This document shows positions 1 to 52,697 of a stretch of DNA of 64,000 nt, one piece after another. Numbering within the stretch: position 1 is the first letter of the stretch; every line of letters begins with the position of its first letter. The position numbers and the translations under genes were made by a program. This DNA is from Romboutsia timonensis (GTDB lineage Bacteria; Bacillota; Clostridia; Peptostreptococcales; Peptostreptococcaceae): the NCBI RefSeq assembly GCF_900106845.1, contig NZ_LT629850.1:1989365-2053364 (forward strand), given 5' to 3'. The notes under the pieces are model-generated. The model worked only from the letters and a program-made list of their open reading frames with translations, searched no databases and was not told the DNA's origin.

Positions 1-108
1 ACTAGAACCTCAATAAAAGTTTTAGCTCATAATATTTCATTTCTAATAAATAAATTGATGAAAAATGATGATTCTATGGCTAAGATAAAAAGATTAGTAT
101 TTGGTTAA
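1..108 (+). CDS. C-terminal end of a transposase-like gene (partial)
   Basis: An open frame runs from the first base of the window to a TAA at 106-108 and encodes the last 35 residues of a protein whose start lies outside. The fragment contains KVLAHNISFL and ends in KIKRLVFG, wording that resembles the carboxyl ends of IS1182/IS4-like DDE transposases. The family name is therefore a weak inference. The catalytic residues are off-window. The sequence 179-196 downstream may be the right terminal repeat of the same element. Confidence 0.45.
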   Translation, partial: TRTSIKVLAHNISFLINKLMKNDDSMAKIKRLVFG

Positions 109-129
109 TATTTACAAATACTAATCTTT
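89..129 (+). terminator. Hairpin overlapping the end of the partial transposase
   Basis: A perfect 15-bp inverted repeat (arms 89-103 and 115-129, 11-nt loop) begins inside the last codons of the partial gene. There is no long T tract after the right arm, so it may be a weak terminator or part of a mobile-element end. Confidence 0.45.
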
Positions 130-178
130 ATGGGATATTGTTTTTGAAAAAAATCAATTTACTTTATTTGGAAAATAA

Positions 179-197
179 TTTTAACTAGCACAACAGA
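179..197. repeat. Candidate right terminal repeat shared with the 51.06-51.18 kb palindromic element
   Basis: The 19 bases AACTAGCACAACAGATTAA here are the exact reverse complement of the left end of a palindromic element near 51.06 kb. They lie about 75 bases after the transposase-like stop codon, where the right end of an insertion sequence would be expected. The shared sequence is seen; the mobile-element reading is inference. Confidence 0.4.
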
Positions 198-264
198 TTA
201 ATTATAATAATTTTATAATAGATATATCTAAAAATATAATAAATAAAGATTAATAACATTATAA

Positions 265-293
265 AAAAGGAGTGCATATAATACACTCCTTTA
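265..293 (-). terminator. Rho-independent terminator of the HesB-like selenoprotein gene
   Basis: Arms 266-274 and 284-292 (AAAGGAGTG / CACTCCTTT) form a 9-bp stem followed on the minus strand by a run of T. It lies seven bases past the stop codon of the gene at 300-623. Confidence 0.8.
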
Positions 294-299
294 ATTATT

Positions 300-623
300 T
301 TAGTGTCCGCAACCAGAGCATCCTCCGCCACATCCACCTTGATCATTTTTCATACTTTCAGGAATTACTCTAAATCCGTATCCTGTATCTTCTATAACAA
401 TATCACCATGTTGTACATATTCGTTTTTATCCATTATAAATTGTAGCCCCTCTACTTCATAAGCTACATCACTATCCTTTTGCTCATCCAGAGCAATACC
501 AAATGATGGACCGCCTCAGCCTATGCCTGCGAAATAAACTCTTATAGTTTGAGGTCTATCTTGATTGTCTTGTAAGATGTCTTTTAACGTCTTTACTGCT
601 GATTCTGGTAAAGTTATCTTCAT
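300..623 (-). CDS. HesB/IscA-like selenoprotein with in-frame UGA at codon 36
   Basis: Reading through one TGA (516-518) gives a 107-residue protein that aligns without gaps to the 108-residue paralogue at 950-1276. The start MKITLPESAVKTL, the block YFAGIG-U-GGPSFGIALDE and the Cys-rich tail (GGCGGGCSGCGH) all match. The TGA sits exactly at Cys36 of the paralogue. From 23 to 39 nt after the U of UGA the mRNA folds as UUGCUC-UGGAU-GAGCAA, a 6-bp stem with G as second loop base; this fits the bacterial SECIS pattern. HesB-like selenoproteins are a described family related to A-type Fe-S carriers. ATG 623 is preceded by AAAGGAT at good distance; an upstream in-frame ATG is too close to that site. 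Sec insertion needs SelA/B/C/D, which are not in this window. A nonsense mutation is the alternative, but the conserved downstream frame and hairpin argue against it. Confidence 0.88.
480..496 (-). promoter_or_regulatory. Candidate bacterial SECIS element
   Basis: On the mRNA (minus) strand the stem UUGCUC/GAGCAA closes the pentaloop UGGAU. The loop begins 25 nt after the UGA, with G at loop position 2, matching the published bacterial SECIS rules (short stem, small loop with an early G, 16-37 nt from UGA). In the Cys paralogue the same codons read ATAGCA-TTAGAT-GAGGAA and cannot form this stem, so the hairpin tracks with the UGA. Confidence 0.75.
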
Positions 624-782
624 TGAAATCATATCCTTTCTTATTTTTTATGAATATACATAGTATATACCTATTATATACATTTTTGCCATAAATAATC
701 AATGCGTGTAGAACTATATTTTTATTTACTATATTTATACCCATTTTATGTAGTATTACTCATAGATTTTTATAACTAATAT

Positions 783-912
783 ACTAAGTAAAAAATTCGC
801 TTCGTTCATATTTCCAATAATCAGGTCAGTTGCTTAAAACCAATTGATTAATATTACTTAAATTTAAAAATTATATACATTTTTTAAAGTATTATAGTAT
901 ATTTAAACGAAA
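783..912 (-). repeat. Dispersed intergenic repeat, copy 1
   Basis: About 130 bases starting with AAAAATTCGCTTCG and running through ...CAATTGATTAATATTACTTA... to ...TTTAAACG match the stretch 26824-26963 with substitutions and a short indel. In both places the repeat abuts the terminator of a minus-strand gene on its downstream side. No protein-coding frame is evident. It fills most of the gap between the two HesB-like genes, of which the rest shows nothing recognisable. Confidence 0.6.
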
Positions 913-940
913 AAAGTTACCTTAGTTTTTAAGGTAACTT
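911..940 (-). terminator. Terminator of the HesB-like (Cys) gene
   Basis: Arms AAGTTACCTT (914-923) and AAGGTAACTT (931-940) with a 7-nt loop, followed on the minus strand by six T. It lies just past the stop codon at 950. Confidence 0.8.
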
Positions 941-949
941 ATATATATC

Positions 950-1276
950 TTAGTGTCCGCAACCAGAGCATCCTCCGCCACATCCACCACCTGTGTTTTC
1001 TGGCATATTTGCAACTACTACTCTAAAACCATATCCTGTATCTTCTATAGTTACATCACCATACTTACTGTATTCAACTTCGCTCATTATAAAATGTAAA
1101 CCTTCTATGTCATAGTGAACATCATCTTCTCTTTCCTCATCTAATGCTATTCCAAATGATGCTCCTGAACAACCCATTCCTGCAAAATATACTCTTATAT
1201 TTTGAGGTCTTTCTTGATTATCTTTTAATATATCTTTTAATGTTTTTATTGCTGATTCTGGTAAAGTAACTTTCAT
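950..1276 (-). CDS. HesB/IscA-like iron-sulfur domain protein (Cys form)
   Basis: A 108-residue small protein of the HesB/IscA (Fe-S biosynthesis) family. It has the YFAGMGCSGASFG block with Cys36 and a Cys-rich tail (GGGCGGGCSGCGH) that could bind metal or a cluster. A-type carriers use three conserved Cys; here the equivalents would be Cys36 and the tail cysteines. It is the tandem paralogue of the Sec-containing gene at 300-623, at high identity, suggesting local duplication and Sec/Cys exchange. AAAAGGAGT-type ribosome binding sequence precedes ATG 1276. Its exact cluster-related role cannot be read from sequence. Confidence 0.85.
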   Translation of the reverse strand: MKVTLPESAIKTLKDILKDNQERPQNIRVYFAGMGCSGASFGIALDEEREDDVHYDIEGLHFIMSEVEYSKYGDVTIEDTGYGFRVVVANMPENTGGGCGGGCSGCGH

Positions 1277-1625
1277 AAAACCAACTCCTTTTCAAAATTT
1301 TGTATATAGAGATTATATGCTTGTTTTATCTAGTAATCAATATATATTAATATAAATTATTTTCTTGATATTATAATAATTACCCACTTTTTTTATGTGT
1401 ATTCACCCATTTTTAAATTTAAAAATTGCCTTTACCTAAAAATTTCTAGCTGATACTTTTTTCTCTGACTTATTTTAAAATAATCTTACACCAATAATTA
1501 TAATTGCTATTTTCCTAGAATTGTTTCCTTTAAATGATGTAAATATGCCAAAATAGATTAAAAGCTATAATAATATTTCAATAAAATACCTATAATTGTA
1601 AATTATATGTATTTTATAATTTAAT
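1277..1625. other. Intergenic region, nothing recognised
   Basis: About 350 AT-rich bases between the HesB-like gene start and the sirtuin stop. It must contain the promoter of the Cys HesB-like gene. No conserved RNA motif, strong hairpin or gene fragment was found on either strand. Confidence 0.5.
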
Positions 1626-2369
1626 TTATAATATTAAATTATTTAACTTTTCTAATACATCTATTATATCTTCTCCATAAATAGAGTAGTTTATATAATT
1701 TGCTATGCTTTCAATCGGTTCTTTATTTATAGCAACTAATTTAGCTCCTTTCTCCTTTGCCATTACAGGTAATTTGTTTATAGGCGAGATACTCATTTCT
1801 GTTCCAATTATTAGCACTATATCACTTTTATACATATTAAATAATGCTAGTTCTAGGTACTTTGGAATTTCTCCAGATAATACTATATTTGGTCTTAATG
1901 TTCCATTGCACTTTGTATACTCTTTTTCAAAATTATCATGCCCATTATTACATTTATGTGACTTTTGATAATATTTACTATTAAATTTCTTTTTACAGTT
2001 TGTGCAGTAAAAATTATTTATATTACCATGTAGTTCTATCACATTTTTTATTCCGTGATACCCATCTATATTTTGAGTTATTACTAAATCTATTATTTTT
2101 TTATTTTTCCATTCTTCTATTATATGGTGAGCTTTATTTGGTTTATTTAATGATATTTGTTTACATATATTTCTATAGTAAGATATAAAATTATTATCTG
2201 ATTTATCAAAATCCTTATTACATAATTTTGATAAGTTAATACCATTATAAACCTGATTGTCAACACTTGTTTTGTAATCTATCTTTTGAGAATCTATACT
2301 AATTCCATCACCGGTTATCACAGTTGTCTTTTTAGACTCTTTTAATAAATTCGCTATTATTTCATACAT
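1626..2369 (-). CDS. Divergent Sir2-family (sirtuin) protein
   Basis: A 247-residue protein; ATG 2369 follows GGAGG by seven bases, better than an upstream ATG. Sirtuin landmarks are present: the glycine loop GDGIS (residues 20-24, usually GAGIS), TQNID (98-102), the catalytic-type ELHGN (His114) and a C-x2-C at 122/125. A later Cys in KCNG starts the TLRPNIVLSGE-like segment. Classical sirtuins follow GAGIS with GIPDFR, which contacts NAD and substrate; here that stretch is replaced by SIDSQKIDYK. The fourth zinc-binding Cys is also unclear. The fold is confident. Protein deacylase activity is uncertain; ADP-ribosylation or NAD hydrolysis are other sirtuin-fold activities. Neighbours give no functional hint. 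Confidence 0.8.
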   Translation of the reverse strand: MYEIIANLLKESKKTTVITGDGISIDSQKIDYKTSVDNQVYNGINLSKLCNKDFDKSDNNFISYYRNICKQISLNKPNKAHHIIEEWKNKKIIDLVITQNIDGYHGIKNVIELHGNINNFYCTNCKKKFNSKYYQKSHKCNNGHDNFEKEYTKCNGTLRPNIVLSGEIPKYLELALFNMYKSDIVLIIGTEMSISPINKLPVMAKEKGAKLVAINKEPIESIANYINYSIYGEDIIDVLEKLNNLIL

Positions 2370-2588
2370 ATTTGTACCTCCAATATAAATTTTATATAAG
2401 TGGTGCAATATTTTATTATATGAATTGCATTTTTAAATGTTAACTTTTAATTCTATTCTTAACATCTTATGCATTAATAAAATTTATATTTTTTATAAAT
2501 AATTAAAAGCTATAAAGTTTTACTTACTTTACAGCTTTATATAGAATACTATCATGTAATTACTCTTATTATTGATATAATTTATCCT

Positions 2589-3053
2589 TTAGTTTATTTT
2601 TATTGATATACAATCCTTTATTTTGTTGAAATTTATTTCTAAATCACCTTTATTCCACGTCTCTATTACTTTATTATCCGATGATACAAATTTTAAAGAT
2701 GATTTTCCAAGTTCATTCCATAGTCTTTCAGATATTATTCTATATGTAGATTCATCATCTTCTACAAAAGAAATATTTATTAATGAAGCTACTTCTCTTT
2801 TTTCATCAAATCCGATATATACATTACTTTCTTGTTGTAGAATTTCTTTTTCATATCCTTTACCAAGTACATTTTCCACATCTATTTTGTTTTTTCCAAT
2901 TAGATTTGCTAAGTCTTTTATTTCATATTCTTCAAGTTGTATATTAGATTTATTTTTTTCATTACCGTATACGTATATTTCTTCTATTATTGATACACCA
3001 GACAGTGTTATTAGCCCTGCTGCTATTAATCCAATTTTTCTTTTTAACTGCAT
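2589..3053 (-). CDS. Small exported or membrane-anchored protein, unknown function
   Basis: About 154 residues starting MQLKRKIGLIAAGLITLSG, a positively charged start plus hydrophobic segment typical of a signal peptide or N-terminal anchor. The rest (EYEIKDLANLIGKNKIDVENVLGKGY) is soluble and charged, recalling small SmpA/OmlA-like or DUF-type exported domains, but no family is assigned. Upstream in-frame GTG and ATG codons exist; ATG 3053 has GGGG nine bases before it. It stands alone with about 200 bases on the sirtuin side. Confidence 0.6.
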   Translation of the reverse strand: MQLKRKIGLIAAGLITLSGVSIIEEIYVYGNEKNKSNIQLEEYEIKDLANLIGKNKIDVENVLGKGYEKEILQQESNVYIGFDEKREVASLINISFVEDDESTYRIISERLWNELGKSSLKFVSSDNKVIETWNKGDLEINFNKIKDCISIKIN

Positions 3054-7711: not shown

Positions 7712-10329
7712 CTATATTTTATCTACTAAACATATATTAACTATTCCACTAAAGTCTATCCAATCATCGTCAATATTATTAAATTCAAATTGTAATTTAT
7801 CTGTAGATAAATTTTCCCAAATTATTGTTTTTGTATGATTATCGTATTTTCCATTTTCTAGTATATAATCTATATCTAAATCCTCACCACCTCGTAGTTT
7901 TATAAAGCTTATATTTAAAGAATATTTATTTTCAGTATTTTTATAATCTTTTAAATCTATTTCTTGTCTTCCTAAGTCTATATATTTTATTTTCACAGGA
8001 ATTTTAGATATATCACTTATCTTATTTTTATCTAATATCAAATATTCTAACTGTAATAAATCATTTAAATTGCATAATTTATATATTTTATTATTCATCA
8101 AATATAAAACCTTTAATTTATACAAGTTTTCAATTCCATTCATTGATGTTATTTTATTATGACTTAAATCTAGAACTTTTAAGTTATATAATTTTTTTAA
8201 ATTACCTATTTCTTCTATATGATTGTTTCTTAAATATAAGTTTTCTAAATTATATAACTCTTCTATACCTTCTGTTGATATTATCTTATTATAACTTAAA
8301 TCTAGACCTTTTAACTTATCTATACTTTTTAAGTTATTTAATCCTTTTATATTCTCTACTTTTTCAATTTCATTATTGCTTAAATCTAATATTTCTAATT
8401 TCTTTAAGTTTTCTATACCTTCCATTGATATTAAATTATTATTATATAAATATAATTCTTTTAAGTTATCTAATTTTTTTATTTCTCCTAATTCTTTTCT
8501 ATTTGTATACCCCAAGTCTAATACTTCTAGGTTTGTTAAATTCTTTATTCCTTCTATTGATATTTTTTCATTACTACGCAGATATAATTCTTTTAAATTA
8601 GTTAATAACTGTATTTCTTCTCCTAACTCTTTTCTATTTGTATATCCTAAGTCTAATGCCTCTAAATGAGTTAATTCTTTTATTCCTTCTATTGATATAT
8701 TTTCATTCTTTGATAAGTTTAAATTCTTTAACTTTAAGTTATATTTCAAGTTTATTATATTCCCTATTTTATTCTTACATAAATTTAAATCTTCTAACTT
8801 GTTTAGCTTATCTAAGCCTTTTATTTCTTCTATTTTACTATTTTCAGATAACTTCCCTAGATTTAAACACTTTAGCTTACTTAATTTATCTAATCCTGTT
8901 ATTTCGTCTATTTTATTATCATATAGATTTAAATCTTCTAACTCTACTAACTGATCTAAACCTTTTATTTCCCTTATTAAGTTGAAAGATAAATCTAAAG
9001 TATTTAACCTTTTTAGATTTTTTAATCCTTTTATCTTAATTATTTCATTAGAAGATAAATTTAAATTTTTAAGTCTTTTTAGATTATCTAATCCCTGTAT
9101 ATCTACTATCTTATTATCTGATAAATTTAATTTGTGTAATTCATCTAACCACTCTAATCCTTTTATTTCTTTTATTTCATTAGAAAATAAATTTAAATTA
9201 CACAATTTTTCTAACATATTTAATCCTTCTATTTTAATTATTCTATTATAAGATAAATCTAAAAATTCTAATTTTCTTAGGCTATTTAATCCTTCAATCG
9301 CCACTATTTTATTGTCTGATAAGTTTAATTTACGTAACTCATCTAACTTATCTAGGCCTTTTATTTCTCTTATTTCATTAAAAGATAAATTTAAGTCATG
9401 TAATCCTTTTAACCTATCTAACCCTTTTATCTCACTTATTCTATTATTAGAAAGGTTTAAACCATGTAATCTATTTAGCTTATCTAATCCTTTTATTTCT
9501 TCTATTCTATTATTTGATAAATTTAATTCATTTAAATCAGTTAAATTATCTAATTGTTTTATCTCCCCTATTATATTATTTGATAAGTTTAAGTTAAATA
9601 TATCTACTAGGCTATTTAAACTTTTTATGTCTTTTATTTTATTATTTGATAGATTTAAATAATTTAATTTTCTTAAATCTTTTAATATATCTATAGACTC
9701 TATTTTATTATTACTTAAATCTAACCATGTTAGACTATATAATCCTTTTAATGCATCTATAGATTCTAATAGATTATTATTTAAATCCAACCATATTAAT
9801 CGCTCTAATTCTTTTAAATCACCTATAAACTCTATTTTATTATTACTCAAATTTAATATCTTTAAATCTTCTAGCTTATTTAATGCCGATAAATCCTTTA
9901 CTTTTGTATTACTTAACTCTAATATTTTTAAATTTTTTAATTTCTCTAGCACTAATATATTACCTATATTAGTATTATTTAAATTTAATTCATCTAGTAA
10001 AATTAATTTTTCTAATATGTCTATATTTTCTATTGGATTACAACTTAAATCTAACCATTGTAAATTAGTTAAGTTCGATAATCTAGCTATATTTTTAACT
10101 TTGTTATTATTTAAATTTAACCATTTTAAGTTAATTAATTTTGATAATTCATCTATATTTTGTATTTGATTATTACTTAAATATAATCTTTGTAAGTTAG
10201 TTAAATTCGATAATTCTTCTATGTCTTTTATTTGATTATTACTTAAATCTATACATTGCAAATTAGTTATATTTGATAATAAACTTATATCATCTATTTT
10301 ATTATTATTTAAATACAATTTTTTTAAAT
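7712..10329 (-). pseudogene. Giant leucine-rich-repeat protein, C-terminal part (gene split by IS30-type element)
   Basis: This is the larger half of one ancestral gene. Roughly 35 tandem SDS22/internalin-type repeats of about 22 residues (LxxLNLSNNxIxxIxxLxxLxx) are followed by a C-terminal Ig-like cap (GKYDNHTKTIIWENL). An apparent start at 10342 lies in the mobile element and has no good ribosome site. Removing the element with one AAT copy joins this frame exactly to 11446-11758. The whole original gene would encode about 975 residues. No signal peptide or wall anchor is seen, so it was probably cytoplasmic and bound proteins. Two near-identical LDLGYTNRKELGE repeats indicate recent internal duplication. 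Expression of the fragment is uncertain. Confidence 0.8.
10327..10329. repeat. 3-bp target-site duplication (AAT), left copy
   Basis: AAT here is repeated at 11446-11448 immediately outside the IS30-type element. Collapsing the two copies restores the LRR reading frame. Confidence 0.75.
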
Positions 10330-11445
10330 CCTGAATTGTCAATTTAAATCAGACAAATTACTTATGAATCACTAAGCAAATGTAAGTAAGCTTTCAAATC
10401 CAGTTGCTTCTTTTATAACCTCATTTGGTGTTTTATAGTCTAGTGATTTTCTAGGTATAGAATTCCATTTATACGCAATCATATTTAATTCTTCTTGAGA
10501 ATATGCAGATAAATCTGTAGACTTAGGTAAATCTTTTCTAACTATTCCATTTGAATTCTCATTTAGCCCTCTTTGACCTGGTGATCCAGGGTCTCCAAAG
10601 TAGATTTCAATATTAACTGAACTATCTTTTTCTATGTCTGACCATTTTGAAAACTCTTTACCTCTATCAAATGTAATAGTAGATATACACGACTTATGTA
10701 AAGATGATAGCCATTTGCAAATTGCTTCTTTAACATCCTCACTCTTTCTACTTGCTTTAAGTAATACAATATATTTTGAATACTTTTCTACTAAAGTAAC
10801 TATAGCTGATTTTCTAGCTTTTCCTACAATAGTATCTCCCTCAAAATGGCCATATTCTATACTAGTTTTAGCATTAGGATACTTTTCATCTCTTTCATGA
10901 ATTGTTTTACATGTATTAATTTTACCTCTTGTTTCGTTATGACCCTTCGGGTTATTTTTACCCTTACGTCTCAACTTATTTATATCTATTACACCTTGTT
11001 TTGCTAATTTGTATAATGTTTTTGTTGATATTTTTTCATCTTTTCCATCTATTTTATCTCTTCCTGCGATAGCATCTAAAGACCAATCATTTTCTAGCTT
11101 ATTATTGATATCATCTAATTTTTCTTTGCTTAATACAATGGGCTTTCTTCCACATCTAGATTTATTTATTAGGTATTGATTATATATTTCTTGAACAGTA
11201 AGTCCTTGCATAAATAGCTTGTAATATCTGTAAACTTTATCTTTTCCAATTTTCATTCTTTGAGCGCAAGCTCTTGCTTTCACGCCTAAATAGTAATTTG
11301 CTTCTAGATTTGTTAGCTGATTTATGTTAATATGATTAAAAGACATTTTTGGTACTCCTTTTGTTGATTTTAGTAGGTTAACTAAGTATATCATAAGTGT
11401 CTTTTTTTGTTTATATATTTGTCTGATTTAATTATACAATTCAGG
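10330..11445 (-). mobile_element. IS30-family insertion sequence in the LRR gene
   Basis: A 1116-bp element. Its ends read CCTGAATTGT...AAATCAGACAAAT inward on both sides as imperfect inverted repeats of about 30 bp. It is flanked by AAT duplications and carries a single transposase gene on the minus strand, the same direction as the host gene. Insertion interrupts codon 105 of the LRR protein (counted from the start at 11758). Confidence 0.85.
10372..11346 (-). CDS. IS30-family transposase
   Basis: An N-terminal helix-turn-helix region (from MSFNHININQLTNLEAN) is followed by an integrase-type DDE core. The first Asp is in EYGHFEGDTIVG, the second in TFDRGKEFS, and the Glu in RGLNENSNGIVRKDLPKS, the IS30 signature ending. 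Length is about 324 residues from ATG 11346, which follows AGGAGT; a longer reading from 11394 lacks a ribosome site. The gene appears intact, so the element may still be active. It catalyses excision and insertion of its own element. Confidence 0.88.
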   Translation of the reverse strand: MSFNHININQLTNLEANYYLGVKARACAQRMKIGKDKVYRYYKLFMQGLTVQEIYNQYLINKSRCGRKPIVLSKEKLDDINNKLENDWSLDAIAGRDKIDGKDEKISTKTLYKLAKQGVIDINKLRRKGKNNPKGHNETRGKINTCKTIHERDEKYPNAKTSIEYGHFEGDTIVGKARKSAIVTLVEKYSKYIVLLKASRKSEDVKEAICKWLSSLHKSCISTITFDRGKEFSKWSDIEKDSSVNIEIYFGDPGSPGQRGLNENSNGIVRKDLPKSTDLSAYSQEELNMIAYKWNSIPRKSLDYKTPNEVIKEATGFESLLTFA

Positions 11446-48164: not shown

Positions 48165-48171
48165 TAAAATG

Positions 48172-48218
48172 TACCCTATAGAGTAGACAACTAATAAAAA
48201 GGTCTACTCTATAGGGTA
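48172..48218. repeat. Subterminal hairpin of the IS3-family element (copy 1)
   Basis: TACCCTATAGAGTAGAC and GTCTACTCTATAGGGTA form a perfect 17-bp stem with a 13-nt loop next to the left end, followed by ATTTTTG. It can act as a terminator or ribosome trap that shields the transposase from transcripts entering from outside. Confidence 0.75.
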
Positions 48219-48266
48219 TTTTTGTATATAATTAAATAAATAATAATTAGATCGGAGAAAATTTTA

Positions 48267-48686
48267 ATGAGTAAAAAATTATTTACAGAACAGGAAATAA
48301 TAATATTAAAACAAAACAAATACATTAAGAAAGTAAGTTCGAAAGGTATTACCTATACCGATGAATTTAAAAAAATATTTATAAATGAAAGTATCAATGG
48401 TAAACTTCCTAGAATAATATTTGAAGAGTGTGGCTTCAATATCGATATTATAGGCATGCAAAGGATTAAATCTTCTGCTAGCAGATGGCGTACGGCCTTT
48501 AAAAATGGCGGAGCTATAAAACTTACAGATACTCGCAAATACAATACTGGAAGACCTATTGAGAAAGATCTTTCAATAGAAGAAAAATACAAAAAACTAG
48601 AAGCTAAAATGAAGTTACTTCAAGCTGAAAATGAATTACTAAAAAAGTTAGATATGATAGAAAGGAGAGTGTTAAAGAAGAAGTAA
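48267..48686 (+). CDS. IS3-family OrfA (helix-turn-helix, copy 1)
   Basis: A 139-residue DNA-binding protein with a helix-turn-helix (TDEFKKIFINESINGKLPRI) and a C-terminal leucine-zipper-like coiled coil (EEKYKKLEAKMKLLQAENEL). It binds the element ends and represses transposition. Ribosomes can leave its frame at A-AAA-AAG (48641-48647), just before its end, to make the OrfAB transposase. Identical to the copy at 52172-52591. Confidence 0.9.
   Translation: MSKKLFTEQEIIILKQNKYIKKVSSKGITYTDEFKKIFINESINGKLPRIIFEECGFNIDIIGMQRIKSSASRWRTAFKNGGAIKLTDTRKYNTGRPIEKDLSIEEKYKKLEAKMKLLQAENELLKKLDMIERRVLKKK
48641..48647 (+). promoter_or_regulatory. Programmed -1 frameshift site (A AAA AAG), copy 1
   Basis: In the OrfA frame the codons are (ct)A AAA AAG, the classical IS3-family slippery heptamer. 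A -1 slip enters the frame that reads through VRYDRKESVKEEVSLFSCEK into OrfB without a stop. A purine-rich AAGGAG lies 15 bases downstream, as a Shine-Dalgarno-like stimulator often does. Confidence 0.8.
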
Positions 48687-48751
48687 GTTTATTTTCTTGT
48701 GAAAAATATGAGATTATTAAGTCTACAATAAAAAAATATAAACTTAAAAAT

Positions 48752-49597
48752 ATGATAAGTTATTTATGTAAAGTTGCAGGTGTATCACGTTCTGGGTATT
48801 ATAAATACTTCTCATCAGAAAGCAAGGATTTAAGAAAATCAAGAGAAGATAAAGATATTTTATCAAAAGAAAATGTATTAAAAGCTTTTAACTTTAAAGG
48901 ACGTAAAAAAGGTGCAAGACAAATAAAAATGGTTTTAAAAGATAGATTTAATATAATATATAATTTAAAGCGTATTAGGAGAATAATGAAAAAATATGGA
49001 ATAGTTTGCCCGTATAGAAAAGCGAATCCTTACAGACGTATGATGAAAGCAAGTAAAGAGCATACTATTGTTTCTAATTTCATAAACAGAGAATTTAAGC
49101 AAGATATACCATATAAAGTGCTATTAACAGATATTACATATTTAAGTTATAAAAATGGAAAAAAAGCATACTTGTCTACAATAAAAGACTCCTCTACAAA
49201 TGAAATATTAGCTCATTATGTCTCAGATAACCTACGGTTAGATATTGTTTTAAATACACTAGAAAAACTTAAGTCAAATGTGAATTTAAAACTCCATAGC
49301 GAAGCTATTTTACACTCAGATCAAGGTGTTCATTACACGAGTCCTAAATTTCAAAAGCAAGTACAGCAATTAGGTTTAAAACAATCTATGTCAAGGAGAG
49401 GCAATTGCTGGGACAATGCTCCACAAGAATCATTCTTTGGGCATTTTAAAGATGAAGTTATTCTTAGCAAATGTAGTACATTAGAAGAAGTGATAAAAGA
49501 AATAGATGATTATATGGATTACTATAATAATTATAGATATCAATGGAATTTAAGCAAGATGACTCCTGTTCAGTACAGAAATCATCTTGTTTCTTAG
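48752..49597 (+). CDS. IS3-family OrfB (DDE transposase, copy 1)
   Basis: The 281-residue part shown from its first ATG; the frame is open back to 48641, so the active protein is the OrfAB fusion of about 444 residues. The rve core has the DDE residues in LLTDITYLSYK, ILHSDQGVHY and DNAPQESFFG. The upstream HTH_21-like segment reads RGRKKGARQIK-type wording (FKGRKKGARQIKMVL). Intact and identical to copy 2, so transposition is probably recent. Confidence 0.92.
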   Translation: MISYLCKVAGVSRSGYYKYFSSESKDLRKSREDKDILSKENVLKAFNFKGRKKGARQIKMVLKDRFNIIYNLKRIRRIMKKYGIVCPYRKANPYRRMMKASKEHTIVSNFINREFKQDIPYKVLLTDITYLSYKNGKKAYLSTIKDSSTNEILAHYVSDNLRLDIVLNTLEKLKSNVNLKLHSEAILHSDQGVHYTSPKFQKQVQQLGLKQSMSRRGNCWDNAPQESFFGHFKDEVILSKCSTLEEVIKEIDDYMDYYNNYRYQWNLSKMTPVQYRNHLVS

Positions 49598-49640
49598 AAA
49601 TACCTTTTTTTAAATTGTCCTTGACAAAGGGTACACTTTA

Positions 49641-50049
49641 TTCTTTAAGGTTATTTATAAAGTTTGCTATATCTTTTAACTTTTCTTTTTTAATAACTTC
49701 TTTTTCAGCGCTTTCATAAGCTATATTTATTTATTTTTAATAATCTATCTTCTTTTATTTTTTCATATTCTTTTTTCTTTATTATTTTTCGCTTATAATC
49801 GAGTGCTATATATTTTGCTTTTATAAAAACAAATGTTTCAAATTTTCCTTTTTTATTATCATAAGTATGTATATCATTATAAACAGATATAAATACATCA
49901 CTTATACATTCTTCAATATCTTCTTTATTTGAATATCCTTTTAAAATTGAATTCACTATATAAGATATTTTATCTGAATATAAATCTACAATATAGTCAA
50001 TACCTCTATGGTCTTTCTTTTTTATAAGTTTTATTATTTTATTTTCCAT
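49641..50049 (-). pseudogene. Sigma factor gene, 5' part (regions 1-2) with a frameshift
   Basis: From ATG 50049 the frame has sigma-70 region 2 wording (YIVDLYSDKISYIVNSILKG, EDIEECISDVFISVYND, ETFVFIKAKYIALDYKRK). It hits a stop at 49714, but a one-base change of frame at an AAATAAATAAATA run (about 49720-49735) continues as YESAEKEVIKKEKLKDIANF and NNLKE into the insertion sequence. Joining to 48012-48161 gives 558 coding bases once the extra base is dropped, a 185-residue ECF-type sigma factor. So this gene is doubly broken. Confidence 0.82.
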
Positions 50050-51200: not shown

Positions 51201-51217
51201 AAAGTGCCTTAAAATTA
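51201..51217 (-). terminator. Left half of the M16 peptidase terminator, split by IS copy 2
   Basis: AAAGTGCCTTAA here pairs with TTAAGACACTTT at 52698-52709. Without the insertion they form a 12-bp stem (one G-U on the minus strand) followed by T5, a terminator for the upstream peptidase gene. The element is inserted in the loop. Confidence 0.7.
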
Positions 51218-51260
51218 TAAAGTGTACCCTTTGTCAAGGACAATTTAAAAAAAGGTATTT

Positions 51261-52106
51261 CTAAGAAACAAGATGATTTCTGTACTGAACAGGAGTCATC
51301 TTGCTTAAATTCCATTGATATCTATAATTATTATAGTAATCCATATAATCATCTATTTCTTTTATCACTTCTTCTAATGTACTACATTTGCTAAGAATAA
51401 CTTCATCTTTAAAATGCCCAAAGAATGATTCTTGTGGAGCATTGTCCCAGCAATTGCCTCTCCTTGACATAGATTGTTTTAAACCTAATTGCTGTACTTG
51501 CTTTTGAAATTTAGGACTCGTGTAATGAACACCTTGATCTGAGTGTAAAATAGCTTCGCTATGGAGTTTTAAATTCACATTTGACTTAAGTTTTTCTAGT
51601 GTATTTAAAACAATATCTAACCGTAGGTTATCTGAGACATAATGAGCTAATATTTCATTTGTAGAGGAGTCTTTTATTGTAGACAAGTATGCTTTTTTTC
51701 CATTTTTATAACTTAAATATGTAATATCTGTTAATAGCACTTTATATGGTATATCTTGCTTAAATTCTCTGTTTATGAAATTAGAAACAATAGTATGCTC
51801 TTTACTTGCTTTCATCATACGTCTGTAAGGATTCGCTTTTCTATACGGGCAAACTATTCCATATTTTTTCATGATTCTCCTAATACGCTTTAAATTATAT
51901 ATTATATTAAATCTATCTTTTAAAACCATTTTTATTTGTCTTGCACCTTTTTTACGTCCTTTAAAGTTAAAAGCTTTTAATACATTTTCTTTTGATAAAA
52001 TATCTTTATCTTCTCTTGATTTTCTTAAATCCTTGCTTTCTGATGAGAAGTATTTATAATACCCAGAACGTGATACACCTGCAACTTTACATAAATAACT
52101 TATCAT
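51261..52106 (-). CDS. IS3-family OrfB (DDE transposase, copy 2)
   Basis: 281 residues from its first ATG, identical in sequence to the protein at 48752-49597, with the same D, D and E positions (TDITY, HSDQG, QESFF). Expressed as an OrfAB fusion by -1 frameshifting at 52211-52217. Confidence 0.92.
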   Translation of the reverse strand: MISYLCKVAGVSRSGYYKYFSSESKDLRKSREDKDILSKENVLKAFNFKGRKKGARQIKMVLKDRFNIIYNLKRIRRIMKKYGIVCPYRKANPYRRMMKASKEHTIVSNFINREFKQDIPYKVLLTDITYLSYKNGKKAYLSTIKDSSTNEILAHYVSDNLRLDIVLNTLEKLKSNVNLKLHSEAILHSDQGVHYTSPKFQKQVQQLGLKQSMSRRGNCWDNAPQESFFGHFKDEVILSKCSTLEEVIKEIDDYMDYYNNYRYQWNLSKMTPVQYRNHLVS

Positions 52107-52171
52107 ATTTTTAAGTTTATATTTTTTTATTGTAGACTTAATAATCTCATATTTTTCACAAGAAAATAAAC

Positions 52172-52591
52172 TTACTTCTTCTTTAACACTCTCCTTTCTA
52201 TCATATCTAACTTTTTTAGTAATTCATTTTCAGCTTGAAGTAACTTCATTTTAGCTTCTAGTTTTTTGTATTTTTCTTCTATTGAAAGATCTTTCTCAAT
52301 AGGTCTTCCAGTATTGTATTTGCGAGTATCTGTAAGTTTTATAGCTCCGCCATTTTTAAAGGCCGTACGCCATCTGCTAGCAGAAGATTTAATCCTTTGC
52401 ATGCCTATAATATCGATATTGAAGCCACACTCTTCAAATATTATTCTAGGAAGTTTACCATTGATACTTTCATTTATAAATATTTTTTTAAATTCATCGG
52501 TATAGGTAATACCTTTCGAACTTACTTTCTTAATGTATTTGTTTTGTTTTAATATTATTATTTCCTGTTCTGTAAATAATTTTTTACTCAT
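52172..52591 (-). CDS. IS3-family OrfA (copy 2)
   Basis: 139 residues, identical to the protein at 48267-48686, with the helix-turn-helix and coiled coil. The slippery A AAA AAG lies at 52217-52211 on the minus strand. The same 17-bp subterminal hairpin lies at 52640-52686. Confidence 0.9.
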   Translation of the reverse strand: MSKKLFTEQEIIILKQNKYIKKVSSKGITYTDEFKKIFINESINGKLPRIIFEECGFNIDIIGMQRIKSSASRWRTAFKNGGAIKLTDTRKYNTGRPIEKDLSIEEKYKKLEAKMKLLQAENELLKKLDMIERRVLKKK

Positions 52592-52639
52592 TAAAATTTT
52601 CTCCGATCTAATTATTATTTATTTAATTATATACAAAAA

Positions 52640-52686
52640 TACCCTATAGAGTAGACCTTTTTATTAGTTGTCTACTCTATAGGGTA
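52640..52686. repeat. Subterminal hairpin of the IS3-family element (copy 2)
   Basis: The same 17-bp stem as at 48172-48218, here in inverted orientation next to the end of copy 2 that faces the M16 peptidase gene. Confidence 0.75.
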
Positions 52687-52697
52687 CATTTTATTAA

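Follow-up and report, generated by a model that had tools for sequence, protein, structure and literature searches.

Here, we identified a gene on the minus strand at positions 303..623 of the window (the whole stretch of 64,000 nucleotides of Romboutsia timonensis that was analyzed, G000:C5:1989365-2053364 of a 3.11-Mb draft assembly), which almost certainly encodes a HesB-like selenoprotein of the IscA fold, with selenocysteine (Sec) predicted to be inserted at UGA codon 36 by SelB and Sec-tRNA(UCA) via a downstream hairpin. This assignment was drawn from the open frame, the alternation of UGA and Cys codons among relatives, the covarying hairpin, the Sec machinery of the host and selection on the codons that follow the UGA. 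The initial annotation had proposed that the gene is expressed as a selenoprotein; on the basis of this conservation, we infer that Sec is indeed incorporated.

Reading from 623 to 300 with TGA translated as U, the gene gave 107 residues (from MKIT to GCGH, with predicted Sec36, the motif GUGGP and a Cys-rich tail, GGCGGGCSGCGH), followed by a TAA stop (300-302, minus). The TGA at codon 36 (516..518, minus) was the only internal one, so that translation confirmed the otherwise open frame reported initially; the interval given for it, 300-623, was also right, and the strand, which had been left out, is minus. A Shine-Dalgarno-like AGAAAGGAT lies 5' of the ATG, and an intrinsic terminator (266..292, minus) lies 3' of the gene. 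The upstream neighbor is a tandem paralog of 108 amino acids (950..1276, minus), which contains Cys36 (TGT), lacks a SECIS element and encodes a product 71% identical to that of the Sec gene. As had been claimed, the TGA falls on Cys36 of this neighbor; it also aligned with the Cys that serves as the first ligand in IscA and HI1723. The two products could be aligned residue for residue throughout, apart from a single residue in the C-terminal tail (107 vs 108 amino acids). Another intrinsic terminator (914..940, minus) separates the two genes; with a terminator after each, they probably form separate transcription units, the Cys paralog probably supplying a selenium-independent version of the protein.

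Relatives of the gene could be found in 64 of the 71 genomes of the family, often with exactly one internal TGA. Alignment of homologs, which had been suggested as a check, revealed the expected alternation: among 47 distinct relatives, codon 36 was TGA in 27 and TGT or TGC in 19, the remaining one being a divergent tandem paralog with Ala (GCT) at this site (L058:2526-2843), which directly adjoins a UGA-containing copy. When the U or C state was mapped onto a protein tree, for which every U had been entered as C, six changes were needed (5-7 in bootstrap trees), although the deeper forks of this short-protein tree were weakly supported; this suggests that the site has switched between Sec and Cys several times. 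Tandem Sec/Cys pairs were observed in the four genomes of the source genus and in G013, G032 and G033. The genes of G032 and G033 formed one clade apart from those of the source genus and the G013 pair was located elsewhere again, and such scattered positions point either to gene conversion or to several duplications, each with a Sec-to-Cys change. By analogy with the switch between Sec and Cys isogenes in Methanococcus maripaludis (PMC11097638), one might further speculate, with rather low confidence, that the HesB-like proteins of Peptostreptococcaceae include a separate subfamily, with a metal-binding tail rich in Gly and Cys, in which Sec and Cys genes repeatedly come to lie in tandem and allow isoforms of a metal or Fe-S carrier to be switched in response to selenium. 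These neighboring pairs offer a natural, testable system for the contribution of selenium to an IscA-type protein.

A hairpin fitting the bacterial SECIS (bSECIS) pattern is located at 480..496 (minus), with a 6-bp stem (UUGCUC/GAGCAA), a loop of 5 nt (UGGAU) carrying G at positions 2 and 3, a UGA-to-loop distance of 25 nt and an energy of -7.6 kcal/mol. All these values are within the published limits (loop of 3-9 nt, with G in its first two positions and at a distance of 16-37 nt from the UGA, stem of 4-16 bp and MFE of at most -7.5; PMC13188914 Fig 2A), in agreement with what had been noted before. The earlier description of the hairpin as 25 nt downstream holds for the distance to the loop, whereas the stem already starts 19 nt after the UGA. 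Such an arrangement was rare by chance: only 7 of the 1949 TGA triplets in the whole window had a hairpin passing all four of the published constraints, and, when codons 37-57 were recoded synonymously 5000 times, a passing one arose in only 3 cases. Among the family relatives, all limits were met in 22 of the 27 UGA genes and in none of the 20 others, the hairpins of the other five UGA genes being outside the strict energy or loop limits. The mean local hairpin energy was -7.3 in UGA genes vs -0.5 in the rest (Mann-Whitney, p ~1e-9, the sequences being related). In addition, the Leu codon CTG, which is rare in the long frames of the window (31 of 1518 Leu codons, 2%), occurred 22 times across the 27 UGA genes and was absent from the others; CTG is the hairpin's own codon, and the hairpin read CTCTGGAT in the same number of UGA genes (22).

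We also measured covariation in the helix. The 21 close UGA genes contained one compensatory pair, and, when 17 distant paralogs were included (38 UGA genes), double changes were found at four of the six helix pairs; the covariation score was reached by none of 500 shuffles, and the helix scored above every slid control. It should be noted that these genes are related, so neither the hairpin counts nor the covarying changes are independent events. The larger set included a second, distant HesB-like gene of the source genome with an in-frame TGA and the motif UxGP (G000:C20:25168-25527; L052:3169-3528), whose SECIS has the same UGGAU loop as the window gene and a different stem (GGUUC/GAACC). 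Thus, the hairpin, whose conservation the initial annotation had proposed to examine, proved to be conserved and covarying in UGA genes and absent from Cys genes. An Rfam search of window positions 1-3000 gave no match. A strict 39-base pattern, scanned against 398 genomes of the phylum, matched in the source genome only, and is therefore specific, yet too strict to describe distribution.

The complete Sec machinery, another check that had been suggested, was found in the source genome. SelA, SelB and SelD profiles scored 618, 380.7 and 401.2 bits, respectively, all over their cut-offs, and selA, selB, selD and a tRNA-Sec with a UCA anticodon (L071:1030-1126), which also passed its cut-off, are clustered within ~7 kb (C5:2246-2253 kb). 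In this selD-selA-selB cluster, selD (L071:6479-7549, minus) also encodes a selenoprotein, an in-frame TGA being present at the classical GGUAAK site. SelB was present in 68 of the 71 family genomes, and the UGA form was absent from the three genomes without it; since nearly all genomes have SelB, its presence hardly discriminates within this family. Taken together with these genes, the mechanism would be that SelB carrying Sec-tRNA(UCA) binds the hairpin just 3' of the UGA and Sec is inserted at residue 36.

The TGA could instead be a real stop in a decaying pseudogene of the Cys paralog, considering that codon 36 is where a standard gene finder would close the frame and that an intact Cys copy is adjacent. 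We regard this as very improbable: the same TGA has been retained across many genera of the family, the hairpin is conserved alongside a complete Sec system and the codons after the TGA showed dN/dS values of 0.14-0.29 among four members of the genus, by which measure the sequence 3' of the UGA is under purifying selection. A near-cognate tRNA, such as one for Trp or Cys, might also read through the UGA and likewise yield a full-length product without Sec; this is equally implausible, as it leaves unexplained the conserved hairpin with its constant spacing, the loss of that hairpin in Cys genes, the alternation of UGA and Cys and the clustered sel genes. Both readings were rejected on the grounds of conservation and the hairpin, and insertion of Sec at codon 36 is the one that we retain.

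A second copy of the Sec gene was detected at C5:2097332 (L051:7333-7653), with 672 bases (C5:2097283-2097954, in the region C5:2097269-2097954; L051:7270-7955) identical to those of the window. It breaks off exactly where a single N stands, next to another copy of a multicopy insertion sequence (IS), with N-gaps; this IS had ~20 strong matches in the source genome, and the end of its transposase occupies positions 1-109 of the window and extends upstream (L070:3295-4473). In G047, of the same genus, the next gene after the Sec gene is one that we take to encode a DUF305-like protein; in the source genome, the two are separated by the IS. The exact identity, the end at a single N and the N-gaps by a multicopy IS suggest that the second copy is probably a gap-filling assembly artifact and only possibly a real IS-linked duplication, and for the same reasons the idea of the Sec gene as IS cargo was rejected. 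Elsewhere in the window, two inverted copies of 1.49 kb with 99.7% identity (48165-49650 and 51207-52693) and a long leucine-rich-repeat protein of 876 amino acids with internal repeats (7712-10342, minus) were observed.

With respect to family assignment, the top two curated-family matches of the full-length Sec product were NF038090 (IscA_HesB_Se; 65.3 bits vs a cut-off of 85) and TIGR01911 (HesB_rel_seleno; 53.5 vs 66.35), these cut-offs being NCBI annotation thresholds and not biological definitions. Pfam PF01521 gave 25.4 bits vs a cut-off of 26.3, and the gene is thus unseen at gathering level. Two relatives in the same UGA tree, L068 (76.6 bits) and L062 (73.4 bits), pass TIGR01911. Considering these matches and relatives, the window gene is, as judged from its sequence, a new and somewhat divergent member of the long-established HesB-like family, and the annotation can be corrected for a gene that both standard gene finders and NCBIfam thresholds would miss.

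When the family profile was searched against the PDB, HI1723, AQ_1857 and IscA were found, with residue 36 placed on their first Cys (GCSG). The AlphaFold2 model had a pLDDT of 86, falling below 50 in the C-terminal tail, and Foldseek matched it to 2apn, 1r94, 1s98 and 2d2a at E ~1e-5, that is, to HI1723, IscA and SufA folds. The tail, Cys-rich in nearly all members, reads C98-x3-C102-x2-C105 and differs from the three-Cys site of A-type proteins, C-x(n)-CGC, the first Cys of which is here Sec. Given the A-type fold, Sec at the first ligand position and the Cys tail, the role is most likely that of an Fe-S, metal or redox site. Sec36 would occupy the first cluster- or metal-ligand Cys position of IscA-type proteins and, in such an A-type Fe-S, metal-binding or redox protein, its selenolate may act together with the Cys thiols of the tail, a cooperation proposed for a region that was modeled with low confidence. 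No isc, suf or nif neighbors were seen in the stretches read around the gene.

HesB-like selenoproteins, whose existence the initial annotation had taken as known, were described by 2005 (TIGR01911; PMC1088965) and are also listed, with the motif UxGP, in PMC13188914. Eleven had been counted in bacteria by 2006, when Sec-to-Cys changes were already described (PMC1794560). In M. maripaludis, the HesB-like selenoprotein has been seen by 75Se labeling, and nitrogen fixation was retained in a mutant in which its gene was disrupted (PMC11097638). No papers on Romboutsia selenoproteins were found in the open-access literature. The window gene appears to share with this family (TIGR01911, NF038090) the IscA-like fold, a UxGP motif (here UGGP) whose Sec takes the place of the first ligand Cys, a bSECIS directly 3' of the UGA, Cys homologs and Sec-to-Cys changes (PMC1794560 Table 1, Fig 4). 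It differs in scoring below both NCBIfam cut-offs, in being in tandem with a Cys paralog and in belonging to a clade of Peptostreptococcaceae whose members have a Gly/Cys-rich tail. IscA, SufA and ErpA (PF01521; PDB 1s98, 2d2a, 2apn and 1x0g) have the same fold as that predicted for the window product, which resembles them in the position of Sec36 at the first conserved Cys and in having C-terminal Cys residues. In contrast with these proteins, it shows only ~12-24% identity in structural alignments, uses Sec in place of Cys, has a longer Cys tail instead of the CGC motif and falls below the Pfam and equivalog cut-offs.
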